NCBI GenBank assembly: GCA_028693055.1
Contig: JAQUWD010000007.1
Coordinates: forward strand, 1 to 64,000
Direction: 5' to 3'
DNA: 64,000 nucleotides
From: Eubacteriales bacterium
GTDB lineage: Bacteria > Bacillota > Clostridia > Christensenellales > Aristaeellaceae
Each line of letters opens with the position of its first letter. Position 1 is the stretch's first letter. This document shows, one piece after another, positions 41,420-48,050 of this stretch. Under the pieces are notes generated by a model that was not told where the DNA came from, did not search any database, and saw only the letters and a list, made by a program, of their open reading frames with translations. A program made the position numbers and the translations under genes.

Positions 41420-42232
41420 TTACGCGGCGGGGGTAAAGGTGGGGGCAAAGCCGGATTCAACGATCAGATCATATACCTTTTGGGTATAGATAACCTGCTC
41501 CAAGGCCTTTACCCAGTCGCTATCGGCGTTTTCAGGCTTCACGGCGACCAGATTCACATATGCTTCGGCGGCGGCGCTGCCAGCTTGCTCGGCGTAGAGG
41601 CCGTCTACATAGGGAACCAGATCGATCAGCGTGGCATTGTTGCCGTTGATAATCGCATAGGCAACATCCTCCCGCAGGCCGGGAATCAGCTCGGCGTTGA
41701 CTTCGTTGATCACCAGATTGTGGGGGTTTTCGACAACGTCGTTAGCGGTGCAGGTGCTTTCCAGCGTGGTGCCCTCGGGCAGCGTGATCAGGCCAGCATC
41801 CTGCAAAAGCAGCAGCGCGCGGTTCTCGTTGACCGGGTCGTTGGGCACTGCAATGGCGTCGCCGTCGGCAATGTCGTCTAGGCTGGTTTTGGTGCCAGCA
41901 TAGAGCGCCATGGGCTCGAAGTGAGTGAAGATAACGCCTTCCAGCTTTTCAGCGTCGCTGACGCTTTCGTTGTACTGGGCCAGATAGGGCACATGCTGGA
42001 AGAAGTTCGCCATCATGTCACCGGCGGAGGTGGCGGGGTTTTCTTGGGTGTAGTCGCTTACGATGGTGATTTCCAAATCGTAGCCCAGCGCAGCCAGATC
42101 GTCCTTGATGAGCTCAAGAATTTCGGCATGGGGGTTAGGCGTGGCGATAACGGTGATCTTTTCGCCAGCAAAGGCGGAGGTCAGGGAAAGGGTGAGAACC
42201 AGCGTCAGGAGTACGGCAAGGAATTTCTTCAT
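41420..42232 (-). CDS. metQ: MetQ-family methionine-binding protein (no lipobox)
   Basis: 270 residues, NlpA/MetQ family. Signal peptide 1-22 (cleavage near TSAFA|GEK); no Cys at all in the lipobox region, whereas MetQ is normally a lipoprotein. Family motifs are ITVIATPNPHAEILE, TQENPATSAGDMMANFFQHVPYL, VIFTHFEPMALYAGT, IAVPNDPVNENRALLLLQDAGLI and NNATLIDLVPYVDGLY. It delivers methionine (possibly also related sulfur amino acids) to MetNI. Last gene of the operon controlled by the upstream leader-peptide attenuator. Confidence 0.92.
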   Translation of the reverse strand: MKKFLAVLLTLVLTLSLTSAFAGEKITVIATPNPHAEILELIKDDLAALGYDLEITIVSDYTQENPATSAGDMMANFFQHVPYLAQYNESVSDAEKLEGVIFTHFEPMALYAGTKTSLDDIADGDAIAVPNDPVNENRALLLLQDAGLITLPEGTTLESTCTANDVVENPHNLVINEVNAELIPGLREDVAYAIINGNNATLIDLVPYVDGLYAEQAGSAAAEAYVNLVAVKPENADSDWVKALEQVIYTQKVYDLIVESGFAPTFTPAA

Positions 42233-42254: not shown

Positions 42255-42911
42255 TTAGCGTCTTTTATGGTCTAGGCCGTGCGTTAAGCGCGTGCCGAAG
42301 ACGGTAATGATTTGCACCAGTGCAACCAATAGCAGACTGGCGGTATACAGAACGTCGAACTTGCGAATGTTCAGACCCTTCACAATGGCTAGCGACCCTA
42401 AGCCACCGCCGCCCGCCGCGCTAGCAAAGGCGGTATAGCTTAGGATGGTGGTGATGCTGATGGCTGCGCCGTTGATCAAAGATGGAATGGCCTCGGGCAG
42501 GAGCACCTTGAAAATGATTTGCATATTGCTGGAGCCCATGGATTGTGCGGCTTCGATAATGCCGTGATCCACTTCCTCCAACGAGCTTTCCACCATTCGG
42601 GCTACATAGGGGAAGGCGCTGATAACCAGCGGGAAAATGATAGCCGTAGTGCCGATGGCAGTTCCCATCACCGCCCGAGTGACGGGAAACAGCATCGCCA
42701 GCATGATGATAAAGGGAATGGAGCGTAAAAAATTGACGACAACGCCTAGTACGGAGTTAAAGCCGGGGCTGGCCATGATGCCGCCCTTCCTAGTGACTAC
42801 CAGCAGCACACCCAGCGGCAACCCCAGCAGATAAGCGATTACGCTGCTCCACAAAGTCATGTATAGGGTTTCCAGCATTCCCTGCCACAGCAGGGGCGCT
42901 AAATCAGTCAT
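42255..42911 (-). CDS. metI: Methionine ABC transporter permease MetI
   Basis: 218 residues, five membrane segments. MetI signature: LWQGMLETLYMTLWSSVIAYLLGLPLG, NFLRSIPFIIMLAMLFPVTR and the coupling loop VDHGIIEAAQSMGSSNMQIIFKVLLPEAIPSLI. Starts four bases inside the metN end (coupled) and is followed by metQ after a 22-bp gap. Confidence 0.95.
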   Translation of the reverse strand: MTDLAPLLWQGMLETLYMTLWSSVIAYLLGLPLGVLLVVTRKGGIMASPGFNSVLGVVVNFLRSIPFIIMLAMLFPVTRAVMGTAIGTTAIIFPLVISAFPYVARMVESSLEEVDHGIIEAAQSMGSSNMQIIFKVLLPEAIPSLINGAAISITTILSYTAFASAAGGGGLGSLAIVKGLNIRKFDVLYTASLLLVALVQIITVFGTRLTHGLDHKRR

Positions 42912-43927
42912 TGTCCGCTTACCTCCTCTACCGTTAGTCCTGCCTTTTCAAGATAGCCTTTGACCAGCTTCAGCTCCTCAGGCTCCTCGGGGCGTTGAAT
43001 CATCATCTGACCGAATACCTTTTGGTTTAGCTGACGGATATCCGCCGAGAGAATGTTCACATCCATGTTGCAGTCCTTCACCAATCGGCTGATGATGGGC
43101 TGACCGCTTGTTTCGCCGTTAAAGACGATGCGCAGGGCGGGTTGTGTAGGCAGCGCGTCCTCCTGCTCCGGCAAAATGCCGAATAGACGCTTTCCCGCGG
43201 CGGATTTGGTGTGCATGAATACCTCGTCCACAGTGCCCTTTTCCGCCAGCTTGCCGCCGTCCAGAATGGCGACCTTGTTGCAAATCTGCCGGATGACAGC
43301 CATTTCATGGGTGATCAGCACGACGGTAATCCCAAGCTCGGAATTGATTTTTTGCAGCAGCGCTAGGATACTCTGGGTGGTCATGGGGTCAAGGGCGCTG
43401 GTGGCTTCGTCGCACAGGAGCATTTCTGGATCGCCTGCCAAGGCTCTAGCGATGGCTACCCGCTGCTTCTGACCGCCGGAGAGCTGACCGGGGAACGCGT
43501 CCGCTTTTTCCTCCAGCCCCACGATTTTTAGCAGCTCCATAACCCGCTCGTTGGCTTTTTTCTTGGGCACACCCGCAATTTCTAGCGGATAACGAACGTT
43601 GCGGGCAACGTTCTTCTGCATCAACAGATTGAACTGCTGAAAGATCATAGCCATGCGACGGCGGGTGTTGCGCAAATCCTGCTTGTTCATGGTTAAGATG
43701 TTCTGTCCGTCAATAAGCACCTGTCCGTCGGTAGGCGTATCCAGACGGTTCAGGCAGCGGATTAAGGTGCTTTTTCCCGCGCCGCTCATGCCGATGATGC
43801 CGTATATATCCCCCTTTTCGATGGTCAGGCTGATGCTGTTCAGCGCCTGTACCTCGCCGCCGGGAATTTGGTACACCTTACACAAGCCGCGCAGCTCGAT
43901 TTGCGGAACATGCAGTTCCGTCTCCAT
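42908..43927 (-). CDS. metN: Methionine ABC transporter ATPase MetN
   Basis: 339 residues. Walker A GMSGAGKST near residue 45, Q-loop MIFQQFNLLMQKNV, signature LSGGQKQR, Walker B MLLCDEATSALD and H-loop ITHEMAVIRQ. A C-terminal NIL domain (~270-339: ISRLVKDCNMDVNILSADIRQLN) is the regulatory methionine-binding region of MetN. ATG 43927 lies behind AAAGGA; the longer frame runs into the attenuator hairpin and is rejected. First structural gene after the leader-peptide attenuator. Confidence 0.95.
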   Translation of the reverse strand: METELHVPQIELRGLCKVYQIPGGEVQALNSISLTIEKGDIYGIIGMSGAGKSTLIRCLNRLDTPTDGQVLIDGQNILTMNKQDLRNTRRRMAMIFQQFNLLMQKNVARNVRYPLEIAGVPKKKANERVMELLKIVGLEEKADAFPGQLSGGQKQRVAIARALAGDPEMLLCDEATSALDPMTTQSILALLQKINSELGITVVLITHEMAVIRQICNKVAILDGGKLAEKGTVDEVFMHTKSAAGKRLFGILPEQEDALPTQPALRIVFNGETSGQPIISRLVKDCNMDVNILSADIRQLNQKVFGQMMIQRPEEPEELKLVKGYLEKAGLTVEEVSGQ

Positions 43928-43958: not shown

Positions 43959-43989
43959 AAAAACCCGCCTCGCATACTTGCGAAGCGGG
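43959..43989 (-). terminator. metN attenuator terminator
   Basis: Perfect 11-bp hairpin CCCGCTTCGCA-AGTA-TGCGAGGCGGG (43964-43989, with one G-T pair) and a T5 tract on the minus strand, 20 bases after the leader peptide stop and 32 bases before the metN start codon. Confidence 0.88.
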
Positions 43990-44008
43990 CTTAAAAACAT
44001 TTTTCCCT

Positions 44009-44086
44009 TTAAGCGACGCAACACAAAGAACACGAGCAATCGCACGCGCACATCATGTTCATTCGCATGGCACATAGGTTCGTCAC
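44009..44086 (-). CDS. Cys/Met-rich leader peptide of metNIQ
   Basis: 25 codons starting with GTG at 44086, eight bases after a strong AAGGAGG. Peptide: (M)TNLCAMRMNMMCACDCSCSLCCVA. It holds seven Cys codons and four internal Met codons in 24 residues, which is far above chance. It lies between the metN promoter and an intrinsic terminator, so it has the textbook organisation of a translation-coupled attenuator: ribosome stalling at Cys or Met codons when the charged tRNA is scarce would favour antitermination. I did not find the competing antiterminator fold by eye. No S-box riboswitch sequence was seen. Confidence 0.78.
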   Translation of the reverse strand: MTNLCAMRMNMMCACDCSCSLCCVA

Positions 44087-44135
44087 GAGCGACTCCTCCT
44101 TGCTTACGGTGTTGCCATCTTACTGGGTTGTTGGC

Positions 44136-44164
44136 ATGATACCATGGCTTCTTGCGGCTGTCAA
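44136..44164 (-). promoter_or_regulatory. metN promoter
   Basis: Minus strand -35 TTGACA (complement of 44159-44164), 17-bp spacer, -10 TATCAT (complement of 44136-44141). Drives the leader peptide and metNIQ. Confidence 0.82.
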
Positions 44165-44213: not shown

Positions 44214-45644
44214 TTACAGCTTTTCGTAGATTTTCACATATTCCGCGGCGCTGTGGGTCCAGCTGTAATCGCCGCTCATACCGCGGGCTTGCAGCGTGTG
44301 GATCACATCCCGCTGCTCGGTATAGTAGACCAGCGCACGCTGGATGACGCTGAGCATGTCGTGGGCGTTATAGTTGAGGAAGGTAAAGCCGTTGCCCGTC
44401 TGGTCGTAATCGTTATAGCTAAGCACCGTATCCCGCAAACCGCCGGTTTCCCGCACGATAGGTACCGTGCCGTAGCGCAGAGAAATCATCTGGCTTAAGC
44501 CGCAAGGCTCGAAGAGGGAGGGCATGAGGAAGAAATCTGCGCCCGCATATAGCTTGTGAGCCAGTCCGTGATCCATGGCAAAGCGAGCGGCTAGCTTGCC
44601 GCGGTATTGCTGCTCGGCCCAGCTAAACAGGTTGGTATATTGCGCGTCGCCCATGCCCAGCACCGCCATCTGGACGTTTTCCTTCATGACATCGCCCAGC
44701 ACACAGTCCACCAAATCCAGTCCCTTTTGGTTGGTGAGACGGCCAACCATGGCGATCAGGGGCACGTCCGGGTCTTCCTTTAAGCCCAAATCATGCTGCA
44801 GCATGGCTTTGTTTTTCGCCTTGTTGGTCATGTCCTTCTGGCTGTAGTTGGCATAGATGAGCGGATCGGTTTCGGGGTTGTATTCGCCAATGTCGATGCC
44901 GTTCAGCACGCCAAACAGGGAATCCTTCCGCGCACGGATCAGGCCGTCCAAGCGCTCGCCGTAATAGGCGGTGGTGATTTCCTCCGCATAGCTTGGGCTG
45001 ACGGTGGTAATGGCGTCGCTATACACCAAGCCGGCTTTCATAAAGTTTGCGCAGCCAAAGCATTCCAGCTTGTCGCTGCTCCACAATCCGTCGCCCAGCC
45101 CCAGCACGTCCTGCACCTCTTTGATGCCGAAAATGCCTTGATATTGCAGATTGTGAATGGTAAACACCGTGCGGATTTTAGAATAGAAGGGGAGATGGGC
45201 GTATTGAATTTTCAATAGTGCGGGTACCATGCCGCTCTGCCAATCATGAGCATGGATGACGTCCGGTTTGAAATCCAGCAGCGGCAGCGCGTCCAGCACC
45301 GCGCGGCAGAAGAAGCTGTAGCGCTCGTACTCATCTCCGCCCAGTCCGTAGACATAGGGGCGGCCAAAGTAATACTTGTTATCCAGAAAATAATAGGTTA
45401 CGCCGTCTTTACGCAGCATCTGCACGCCGCAATACTGTCTGCGCCAGCCCAGCTGCACGTCGAAATGCAGCTGAAACTCCATTTGGTGCTGCCATTTGGA
45501 ATCAATAGCCGTATACATAGGCACAACCACCCGAACGTCGTGCCCCAGCTTGGCTAGCACGGGGGCGAGGGCTCCCGCTACGTCGGCCAGACCGCCGGTT
45601 TTAACAAAGGGTACGCATTCGCTTGCGGTAAAGAGAATTTTCAT
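44214..45644 (-). CDS. glgA: Glycogen synthase (ADP-glucose:alpha-1,4-glucan glucosyltransferase, GT5)
   Basis: 476 residues, cytoplasmic. Full-length GT5: N-terminal KTGGLADVAGAL near residue 15 (ADP-glucose loop), HAHDWQSGMVP and FTIHNLQYQG in the first lobe, and in the C-terminal lobe LTNQKGLD, and the nucleotide-sugar motif MPSLFEPCGLSQMISLRYGTVPIVRETGGLRDTV with the conserved Glu. It adds glucose to the growing alpha-1,4-glucan. Third gene of the glg operon (glgC-glgD-glgA), 45 bases after glgD. No clear terminator follows; the metN promoter is close by on the same strand. Confidence 0.96.
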   Translation of the reverse strand: MKILFTASECVPFVKTGGLADVAGALAPVLAKLGHDVRVVVPMYTAIDSKWQHQMEFQLHFDVQLGWRRQYCGVQMLRKDGVTYYFLDNKYYFGRPYVYGLGGDEYERYSFFCRAVLDALPLLDFKPDVIHAHDWQSGMVPALLKIQYAHLPFYSKIRTVFTIHNLQYQGIFGIKEVQDVLGLGDGLWSSDKLECFGCANFMKAGLVYSDAITTVSPSYAEEITTAYYGERLDGLIRARKDSLFGVLNGIDIGEYNPETDPLIYANYSQKDMTNKAKNKAMLQHDLGLKEDPDVPLIAMVGRLTNQKGLDLVDCVLGDVMKENVQMAVLGMGDAQYTNLFSWAEQQYRGKLAARFAMDHGLAHKLYAGADFFLMPSLFEPCGLSQMISLRYGTVPIVRETGGLRDTVLSYNDYDQTGNGFTFLNYNAHDMLSVIQRALVYYTEQRDVIHTLQARGMSGDYSWTHSAAEYVKIYEKL

Positions 45645-45689
45645 AAGATCCGCTCCTTTTCTGTTGTGGGAAGGATAAGCGCCGAGCCT

Positions 45690-46811
45690 TTAAATCACCA
45701 TGTTCTTGGAGATCACAATGGGGTAGGCCTTTGGCCCGATCAGCCGTCCGTCCCGTTTTACGCGGGCCTGCTTGTCCAAAATACAATTTTCCAGATAAGC
45801 GCCTTCTTCTACGTGGCTATCCTGCATGATGATGCAGTTTTTAACGGTTGCACCCTTAGCAATATGCACGCCACGGAACAGCACGCTGTGCTCCAAAGTG
45901 CCGTCGATGATGCAGCCGTCCGCAACCATGGAATTGACCACTTTTGCATCGTCCAAATACCGGGCGGGCAGCTCGTCCCGCACTTTGGTATAGACGGGGC
46001 GATCTTCGGGGAACAGATGATGGCGAACGTCGATGTTCAGCGTGTCCAGATTGAAATTGAAGTACCCCTGTACGCTGTCCATGCGGTAGCACAGGTCTTT
46101 ATATTCGTAGCCCTTTACTTTCAGACCCGCATCCCGGATCATTCTTTGGATTACATCCCGCATCAGGTCGTGATAGCCGTGGGCTACGCCGCGATCCACC
46201 AGCTCCATGAGCAGAGATTTGGAAATCAAAATTGCATCCATACTCGTGTTCTCGTACCGGGGCTTGGTGGGATCGATTTCCACATCGCGAATCATGCCGT
46301 CCTTGTCCACGTCCAGATAACTGCCGTATTCGGGCCGCTGCATGCCGGGATCCTTGGTATACATCATAACCGCGTCGCAGTCTCCCTGAGCGTAAACGTC
46401 CATAATGGCGTTGAAATTCGCGTTGTAGACGATCAGGCTGTTGCAAAACAGCACATACTCCTGACGGCTGCGGCGCAGATAGCTCATGTTGGAATGGAGC
46501 GCGTCCAGAGAACCGGTATACACGCCGACGTTTTCCCGCGTCAGGAAGGGTGGCAAAATATATAGACCGTCGTTTTTGCCGTGAAGATCCCATTCCTTAC
46601 CGCTGCCCAGATGATCCATCAGGCTGTGATAATTCTTTTGCATGATAACGCCCACGTTGCGAATGCCGCTGTTTACCATATCGCTGACCAGAAAATCGAT
46701 CACGCGATAGCGACCGGCAACGGGCAGCGCCGCGATGGCTCGCAGCAATGTCAGCTCCCGTAAAAAGCTGTCCTTTTCGCCGGTATAAATGATACCCATA
46801 ACGTCCTTCAT
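45690..46811 (-). CDS. glgD: GlgD, regulatory-type subunit of ADP-glucose pyrophosphorylase
   Basis: 373 residues. Nucleotidyltransferase-like N-terminal domain (TLLRAIAALPVAGRYRVIDFLVSDMVNSGIRNVGV) and a left-handed beta-helix C-terminal domain with hexapeptide repeats (GCIIDGTLEHSVLFRGVHIAKGATVKNCIIMQDSHVEEGAYLENCIL). The catalytic pyrophosphorylase loop GGQGSRL is absent (replaced by GEKDSFL), which is typical of GlgD; in Bacillota it pairs with GlgC to form the active heterotetramer. It lies between glgC and glgA. Product of the GlgC/GlgD pair is ADP-glucose. Confidence 0.95.
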   Translation of the reverse strand: MKDVMGIIYTGEKDSFLRELTLLRAIAALPVAGRYRVIDFLVSDMVNSGIRNVGVIMQKNYHSLMDHLGSGKEWDLHGKNDGLYILPPFLTRENVGVYTGSLDALHSNMSYLRRSRQEYVLFCNSLIVYNANFNAIMDVYAQGDCDAVMMYTKDPGMQRPEYGSYLDVDKDGMIRDVEIDPTKPRYENTSMDAILISKSLLMELVDRGVAHGYHDLMRDVIQRMIRDAGLKVKGYEYKDLCYRMDSVQGYFNFNLDTLNIDVRHHLFPEDRPVYTKVRDELPARYLDDAKVVNSMVADGCIIDGTLEHSVLFRGVHIAKGATVKNCIIMQDSHVEEGAYLENCILDKQARVKRDGRLIGPKAYPIVISKNMVI

Positions 46812-46839
46812 GGCGTATTCCTCACTTCGTTATCAATAT

Positions 46840-48015
46840 TTACTTGCCGCTGCATTGCTCGCCGGGCTTTACAACGCTACCGGCGGGAAGAACGACGTTT
46901 TGGCCTACCACGGCGATATTGCCTGTTTCGCCGCCGATTACGGAACCGGCTCCGATGACGGCTTCCTCCGCAATGATAGCGCGCCTTACCTGAGCGCCCC
47001 GCTCTACCACCGCGCCGGGCATGAGCACGCTGTCGATAACGCTTGCGCCTTCCTTTACCACAACGCCGGCGAATAGCACGCTGTGATCTACACGGCCATA
47101 AACCTCGCAGCCTTCGGTGATCAGGCTGTTTTTGGCGCTGCCGCCCTCGGCGATAAAGTGAGGGGCCATGCCGGGATTTCGTCCGTAGATCCGCCACTTT
47201 TTGTCGTACAGATCAATGGGCATAGGCAGCGACAGCAGATCCATGTTAGCTTCCCAAAGACTTTCGATGGTGCCGACGTCCTTCCAATAGCCTTCAAAGT
47301 CGTAGGCGAACATCCGCTGGCTGTCTCCCAGCATAGCGGGAATGATGTTTTTGCCGAAATCGTTGGCGCTGCTAGGATCCTGCGCGTCGGCCATCAGGTA
47401 TTGGCGCAGCTTTTCCCAAGTGAAGATGTACACGCCCATGCTGGCCTTGTTGCTCTTGGGCTTAGCGGGCTTTTCTTCAAATTCTGAAATGCTGTTGTCC
47501 TCAGCGGTATTCATGATGCCAAAACGGCTGGCTTCGTCCCACGGCACCTCCCGCACTGCGATGGTGCAGTCAGCGTTGTTTTGGATATGGAACTGAAGCA
47601 TTCTGTTATAGTCCATTTTATAGATATGATCACCGCTTAGAATCAACACATAATCGGTGTTAAATTGCTCGATGAATTGCAGATTTTGATAAATGGCGTT
47701 AGCGGTGCCGGAATACCATTCGCCGGACTTGCCCTTAACGTAAGGCGGCAATACATAAACGCCGCCGTGGGCAAGGTCAAGGTCCCAGGGAGAACCGCTG
47801 CCGATATAGGCGTTCAGAACCTGCGGCTGATACTGCGTCAGTACGCCTACCACGTCGATGCCGCTGTTGGTGCAGTTGCTTAGGGGAAAGTCGATAATGC
47901 GGTATTTACCGCCATAGGGAATGGCTGGCTTTGCCATATCGGAGGTTAGGATGCCCAGCCGACTGCCTTGTCCGCCGGCTAACAGCATTGCAACACATTG
48001 CTTTTTGTTCATCAT
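46840..48015 (-). CDS. glgC: Glucose-1-phosphate adenylyltransferase GlgC
   Basis: 391 residues. Catalytic subunit making ADP-glucose from ATP and glucose-1-phosphate. Pyrophosphorylase loop [16 protein letters not shown], the substrate motif [20 protein letters not shown] and [10 protein letters not shown]-terminal beta-helix hexapeptide repeats ([38 protein letters not shown]). ATG 48015 was chosen behind AAGGAG at 11 bases; a GTG at 48027 would overlap the RBS. First structural gene of the glg operon, with a strong promoter and a small leader frame ahead. Confidence 0.96.
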
Positions 48016-48050
48016 GGAAGGGTTCACTCCTTCAAGTTTTCTTAATGAGT

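Follow-up and report, generated by a model that had tools for sequence, protein, structure and literature searches.

A predicted methionine-dependent leader peptide attenuator upstream of metNIQ in the Aristaeellaceae

The window analyzed in this study is the whole stretch of 64,000 nucleotides at positions 1 to 64,000 of contig JAQUWD010000007.1 (assembly GCA_028693055.1), from a bacterium of the family Aristaeellaceae in the class Clostridia. On its minus strand, a promoter is followed by a Shine-Dalgarno (SD) sequence, a 25-codon frame with a GTG start, an intrinsic terminator, and the genes metN, metI, and metQ. A sequence-only reading of this DNA had described a promoter, a ribosome-binding site, a 25-codon frame with seven Cys and four internal Met codons, a terminator, and metN, and all of these were confirmed in the sequence. 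The features are as follows.

44136..44164, minus strand: sigma-70-type promoter TTGACA-17 nt-TATCAT with TG before the -10 box (11/12 consensus matches)
44093..44100, minus strand: Shine-Dalgarno sequence AGGAGGAG (GGAGG), read from the sequence
44009..44086, minus strand: leader peptide gene MTNLCAMRMNMMCACDCSCSLCCVA with GTG start and TAA stop, from the open reading frame list; frame conserved in relatives
44065, minus strand: start of the conserved core, codon R8, placed from the leaders of relatives
44051..44062, minus strand: putative Met control codons M9-N10-M11-M12, from stalled-ribosome folding
44042..44049, minus strand: region 1, forming a short hairpin with the start of region 2 (fold and consensus hairpin)
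44009..44036, minus strand: region 2, predicted 5' strand of the antiterminator, also coding for the C-terminal Cys residues (predicted duplex and consensus)
43959..43990, minus strand: intrinsic terminator, hairpin 43990-43963 plus U-run (folds and covarying stem)
43969..43982, minus strand: region 3, terminator loop and flanks, predicted 3' strand of the antiterminator (folds and swap test)
42908..43927, minus strand: metN, ATPase of the methionine importer (best NCBIfam match TIGR02314, 347 bits, below its cut-off of 499.7)
42255..42911, minus strand: metI, permease (best match NF008049, 195 bits, below its cut-off of 212)
41420..42232, minus strand: metQ, substrate-binding lipoprotein (best match NF008285, 145 bits, below its cut-off of 374)

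The start of metN was taken as 43927; an in-frame ATG further upstream, at 43975, falls within the terminator hairpin. The terminator stretch folded at -24.5 kcal/mol, compared with a mean of -13.0 for shuffled sequences (z -4.49), and 0/200 shuffles were as good. This terminator was missing from the list produced by a pattern scan of the window, and separate folds do show it. A TTGAC box was located 74-95 nt upstream of the conserved core in 16 of the 17 relatives scanned, the 17th running into a contig edge. Directly upstream of the attenuator (window 44214-48027, minus strand) lie glgA and two adjoining frames upstream of it (373 and 395 aa), which we take to resemble a glgD/glgC pair.

Known RNA regulators were searched with Rfam models. 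No match reached the gathering score in the 64-kb window, so that neither an S-box (RF00162) nor a T-box (RF00230) was found at the locus. The only T-box-like match in the window lies near the contig start (243-463, minus strand; 59.2 bits, below the gathering score of 93). One S-box match each was present in 16/17 genomes of the genus, and the window's own genome (94.6% complete) has a single S-box match, which precedes metK; metNIQ therefore probably reads another signal. The same genome holds 11 T-box matches, four of them above the gathering score. Thirteen metN loci from other genomes, four of which have a Met-rich leader, gave no S-box and a single T-box, about 1.3 kb before metN (L039), indicating that S-box or T-box control of metN is not the rule in that small sample.

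We then surveyed the upstream regions of metN in the family. Among 300 family genomes, metN was found in 262, and the 90 best-scoring metN loci, window included, were examined down to genome G027, with G090 and G041 skipped. The 90 consisted of 30 returned loci and 60 fetched ones; two had too little upstream DNA, leaving 88 to be judged. A leader of the same build was present at 76 of these 88 loci, and 12 had no leader just upstream of metN. These 12 loci gave no Rfam match; one of them (L171) has a leader before metA in the same cluster, and in two (L123 and L126) the leaderless metN seems, by eye, to be placed after metQ. For the analyses below, 74 leaders were chosen manually from the open reading frame lists, with a Met-rich core as one of the criteria; two duplicates and loci repeating another leader were left out. 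Being relatives, these leaders are not independent samples.

The 71 distinct leaders carry 1-9 internal Met codons, with only one in three leaders, and 0-9 Cys codons. Their typical core is Met-Arg-Met-x-Met, and across relatives the peptides are 14-36 aa long (the start index of L119 is wrong in the list giving these lengths). In 56/58 cases, the DNA motif CGRATG shared its frame with the first start codon downstream of the SD sequence; this test began from the DNA motif and not from Met-rich frames. Up to the core, 246/749 codons were Met compared with 13.4 ± 3.5 after base shuffling, an excess that reflects in part the role of the Met-rich core in choosing the leaders; after the core, 176/864 codons were Cys compared with 52 ± 6.8 after shuffling. 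These three counts (56/58, 246/749, and 176/864) include a few leaders, such as L020, L085, L093, and L094, that have Arg-Cys close to the start and whose core is misplaced. The sequence-only reading had expected both Cys and Met codons to be conserved in relatives that keep metNIQ. This held for Met, which occurred in every leader taken, and failed for Cys, which is absent from 7 of the 71 leaders and occurs just once in 13. At locus L006 (4746-4897), the leader frame stops early, after 17 aa, and the downstream block TTTGTGCTGCGCCGCTTGA is retained, as expected if the RNA, and not the peptide end, is under selection.

A terminator hairpin was found between the stop codon and metN in 74/74 leaders, the weakest at -13.7 kcal/mol. 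When the downstream bases were shuffled, 38/74 gave no hairpin and 4/74 reached -13.7 kcal/mol. The terminator stem covaries. The folds also revealed a competing structure, formed by the second half of the leader gene together with the loop and arms of the terminator. We assessed this antiterminator in an alignment of 38 of the 74 leaders, hand-chosen as alignable, with very divergent leaders left out. In it, 80.7% of the cells were paired, and the covariation score was 0.233 compared with 0.180 ± 0.009 for shuffled alignments (0/500 as high) and at most 0.126 for slid versions. Cells changed on both sides numbered 36 versus 19.4 ± 3.4 in shuffles (0/500), and pairs with changes on both sides were less striking, at 11 versus 8.5 (reached in 55/500 shuffles). 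At one leader-loop pair, U-A occurred 10 times, G-C 5, A-U 4, U-G 3, C-G 1, and G-U 1, with 12 leaders unpaired and 2 gapped. All these figures are favored, since the structure was derived from folds of the same sequences on which it was counted. The leader segments also fit their own terminators better than swapped ones, with 0/20000 permutations reaching the observed fit for the 71 leaders; on sets of representatives the counts were 361/20000 (n=17), 25/20000 (n=31), and 1/20000 (n=39). The idea that the core AUGCGAA pairs directly with the terminator arm UUCGCA was attractive in close relatives and was rejected, as the complementarity is, by eye, lost in others.

To model a stalled ribosome, only the RNA left free downstream of the ribosome (A-site plus 13 nt) was folded. 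In the full-length fold, the mean probability of the terminator, P(terminator), was 0.93 with the frame free. It was 0.97 for a ribosome at the stop codon and lowest, at 0.57, when the A-site lay two codons beyond the core Arg. In one leader (L012), it was 0.00 at M8 and 0.98 at the stop codon, and L116 likewise shows a clear switch in this fold. The lowest value near the core averaged 0.485 and was below 0.5 in 36/71 leaders, compared with 0.886 for shuffled spacers. These family means, like the swap test, use a corrected core position, with L141 still placed on a secondary match and, in the family stall-folding profile only, L132 as well. Averaged over the family, the predicted stall position that disfavors the terminator most thus matches the Met cluster, and the one that disfavors it least is the stop codon.

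We also folded the leaders after removing the last 4 nt of the hairpin, which roughly imitates RNA that has yet to leave the polymerase. In the full-length fold, the antitermination zone covered 59/283 Met codons, 20/218 Cys codons, and 109/1112 other codons; with the last 4 nt absent, it covered 248/283 Met, 94/218 Cys, and 649/1112 other codons. The latter zone is wide, taking in 991/1613 codons of all leaders, and shuffled spacers often lose the terminator too under this setting (mean 0.361 vs 0.027 for the real ones).

For the window, the results depended on the state of the hairpin. With the complete hairpin, P(terminator) was 0.97 at M9, N10, and M11, and reached its minimum of 0.78 at M12; over the three codons that follow the core Arg it was 0.97 compared with 0.98 for shuffled spacers, 3/20 of which were as low (these first folds share the core misplacement noted above for a few leaders). 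With the last 4 nt absent, it was 0.20 at R8, 0.10 at M9, 0.00 from N10 to C13, 0.01 at A14, 0.49 at C15, 0.68 at D16, 0.92-0.97 from C17 onward, and 0.96 at the stop codon. M9, M11, M12, and C13 thus lie inside the zone and C15 is borderline, with M7, C5, C17, C19, C22, and C23 outside it. The alternative RNA folds that were to be looked for after the sequence-only reading appear in the family average, but in the window the terminator persists in the complete hairpin and dips only in the shortened one. Because it is seen only with the last nucleotides of the hairpin left off, the proposed switch of the window rests on a kinetic argument. The Cys-rich lineage, to which the window belongs, has a full-length minimum above 0.5 in 13/18 leaders and below 0.5 in L085, L089, L093, L094, and L095, the values for L086 and L088 coming from one of two folding runs.

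What the computation shows is the anatomy of the locus, a conserved frame with conserved Met codons, an antiterminator that covaries, and an association with methionine genes; from these we infer the stalling, its kinetics, and the signal. Taken with the terminator in 74/74 leaders and the predicted stall position, they give good support to leader-peptide attenuation, as the sequence-only reading had proposed. The locus is likely to control transcription by ribosome-mediated attenuation, with methionine sensed by way of the charging of elongator tRNA-Met. Under ample methionine, the ribosome would pass the Met cluster, reach the stop codon, and cover region 2, so that the terminator forms and metNIQ is off. 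When Met-tRNA is short, the ribosome would halt on M9-M12 and cover region 1, leaving region 2 available for pairing with the loop and arms of the terminator, which could then not close in time, and metNIQ would be transcribed. If there is no translation, region 1 would pair with region 2, and the terminator would form. Several observations count against this reading: the complete hairpin of the window does not switch, 12/88 metN loci have no leader just upstream, three leaders carry a single internal Met, and in three genomes of one genus the leader points away from metN.

The sequence-only reading had gone further and proposed that both sulfur amino acids are sensed, with a shortage of either Cys or Met stalling the ribosome and giving readthrough. 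Part of the folding evidence agrees with such a dual sensor. C13, right after the Met cluster, has a P(terminator) of 0.00 with the last 4 nt absent, and C15 is borderline; at least one Cys lies in the zone in 55/64 of the Cys-bearing leaders under this setting (19/64 in the full-length fold), as do 74/103 of the Cys codons located more than eight from the end, and the excess of Cys codons after the core points the same way. The predicted metL leader of Streptomyces lividans also mixes Cys and Met codons, according to the available text of its description (PMC8079986). However, we rejected the Cys codons as the main control codons: they vary among relatives, and only 20/115 of those in the last eight codons fall in that zone. 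In the window, C5, C17, C19, C22, and C23 sit where the terminator wins (0.92-0.97). At alignment column 91, 18 leaders have a U that makes the codon one for Cys, and a C in its place makes it one for Arg in eight leaders, His in three, and Leu in one. The pair of this column with column 143 is U-G in 21/38 leaders and C-G in 11/38, and since both combinations pair, the pairing is kept while the Cys is lost. For the most part, the C-terminal Cys codons thus probably follow from the sequence required in region 2 for RNA pairing. Furthermore, leaders before metA and metY have two and zero Cys codons, respectively. Together with the leaders that lack Cys or have only one, these results do not support sensing of both amino acids, and we regard a dual sensor as unlikely, although C13 or C15 may contribute to sensing.

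The Cys-rich lineage might instead use a two-input gate, in which stalls at Met (and C13) open the operon, but a ribosome stalled at the C-terminal Cys codons masks the antiterminator strand and causes termination. We hold this to be quite unlikely; if it were true, methionine would be imported only when Met is short and Cys is not.

The conserved Arg-Met pair raises another explanation, namely that the nascent peptide stalls the ribosome upon binding Met or SAM rather than through uncharged tRNA. Two features would suit such an arrest: the codon of the core Arg is mostly CGA (CGG in L003, L020, L088, L090, and L095), and the three leaders with a single internal Met have all retained the Arg-Met pair. 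In contrast, Arg is replaced by Gln, Ser, or Glu in L089, L099, L104, L107, L134, and L170, Arg-Met has become Arg-Cys in L094 and L095, and most Met-rich leaders of other families lack the pair. Moreover, an arrest by plentiful Met would turn uptake on when it is not needed. Ligand-induced arrest is thus very unlikely in our estimate. A ligand-binding, riboswitch-like RNA that needs no translation is extremely improbable: the strong nucleotide conservation of the core and of TTTGTGTTGCGCCGCTTGA would fit it, but the start codon, SD sequence, and frame are retained, the second conserved block fits the antiterminator, no Rfam match was obtained, and other families have Met-rich leaders of other sequence before metN. 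A functional small Cys/Met-rich protein, for example a metal-binding one, has next to no likelihood, as the composition of the window peptide favors it but Cys is not conserved, the length varies, and a terminator and an antiterminator lie downstream.

Leaders of this type also precede other methionine genes in the family, in favor of a methionine attenuator. A leader model matched at E 1e-5 or better in 45/150 family genomes, with one match in the window's genome. A leader was found before metA-metN in G027 (L204) and before metY-metF in G075 (L206). The former shows a folding dip at M11 (0.18) and the latter a weak full-length dip (0.70 at M9); with the last 4 nt absent, P(terminator) of the G075 leader is low even without a ribosome. 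Scanning of 30 metA upstream regions gave a clear leader only at the G027 metA (L238). Frames with at least two internal Met codons before metA at L215, L216, L219, and L223 were not accepted as members, and the genome of L215 (G016) has a weak leader-model match just before metA (E 0.00136). In the window's genome, neither metA nor the second metN-like gene has a Met-rich leader. In three genomes of one genus (G025, G090, and G065; loci L201, L202, and L203), the leader points away from metN, and at L201 the divergent leader is followed by a DUF218 gene. When L201 and L202 were compared, only L201 switched in the fold with the last 4 nt absent.

In ribosome-mediated attenuators of the trp and his type, a leader peptide carries the control codons, an antiterminator competes with an intrinsic terminator, and the operon serves the same amino acid. 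The present locus resembles them in its control codons, in the competition of antiterminator with terminator, and in the operon for the same amino acid, but differs in that the putative control codons are Met and that the leader gene itself, in its second half, contains the antiterminator strand, which pairs with the loop and arms of the terminator. In Bacillota, riboswitches, T-boxes, or repressors are usually credited with methionine control. The S-box, which is methionine-related, and the T-box likewise control termination in Bacillota, but neither was found at this locus.

For metNIQ, the sequence-only reading had called a leader peptide a different solution, and this was partly anticipated. 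In the open-access literature searched for methionine leaders, one direct precedent was found, metL, a leader peptide predicted before metNIQ of S. lividans TK24 and proposed to be a methionine-dependent attenuator (PMC8079986, available text). As described there, the transcript is leaderless, several hairpins but no typical Rho-independent terminator lie downstream, and termination is unclear. In both systems, metNIQ is preceded by a short leader peptide that contains Met (and Cys) codons; unlike metL as described in that text, the window family has an intrinsic terminator, a covarying antiterminator, and comparative support, and the two are likened by description only. Histidine leader peptides precede hisS/hisZ of bacilli in the Firmicutes, as far as the accessible part of PMC2965389 goes. 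Cys leader peptides are reported for the cys operon of Mycobacterium and cbs of Bifidobacterium, and, within the accessible text of the same source, no conserved RNA structure is given before methionine operons in Actinobacteria (PMC1262725); uORFC-8-2 is a cysS leader of Rhodobacterales (PMC8632094, in part). As these sources describe them, such leaders resemble the window's in having Cys codons near the peptide end, but there the Cys codons are conserved and cysteine genes follow, whereas here Cys is lost in relatives and methionine genes follow.

The mechanism is thus probably a known one, with a specificity predicted once before, for metL, and now with comparative evidence for the antiterminator. 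If this is true, methionine would become a well-supported specificity of ribosome-mediated attenuation, before metNIQ, metA-metN, and metY-metF. It would also imply a division of labor within one genome, with SAM read by the S-box at metK and charged tRNA-Met read at metNIQ.

We finally looked beyond the family. Across 391 genomes sampled from the whole class, the leader model matched at E 1e-5 or better only at the window's leader and at one other of its family, and outside the family the model gave weak or partial matches only. Met-rich leaders of different sequence were nevertheless present before metN, at 7/60 loci of a genome collection (several of them alike; the scan retained the best 80 metN loci) and at 3/29 class-wide loci, compared with 25/2320 random control windows, the 60 and 29 loci being top-scoring and not random. 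The three class-wide candidates (L246, L257, and L266) come from further families of the class sample. The seven from other Clostridia (L040, L056, L059, L060, L063, L064, and L079) have 6-10 internal Met codons, and stall folding of them showed a dip in three (L056, L060, and L064), partly at non-Met codons. The Clostridia with a Met-rich leader before metN include [Clostridium] clostridioforme AGR2157, and its presence in this cultured relative makes the idea testable.
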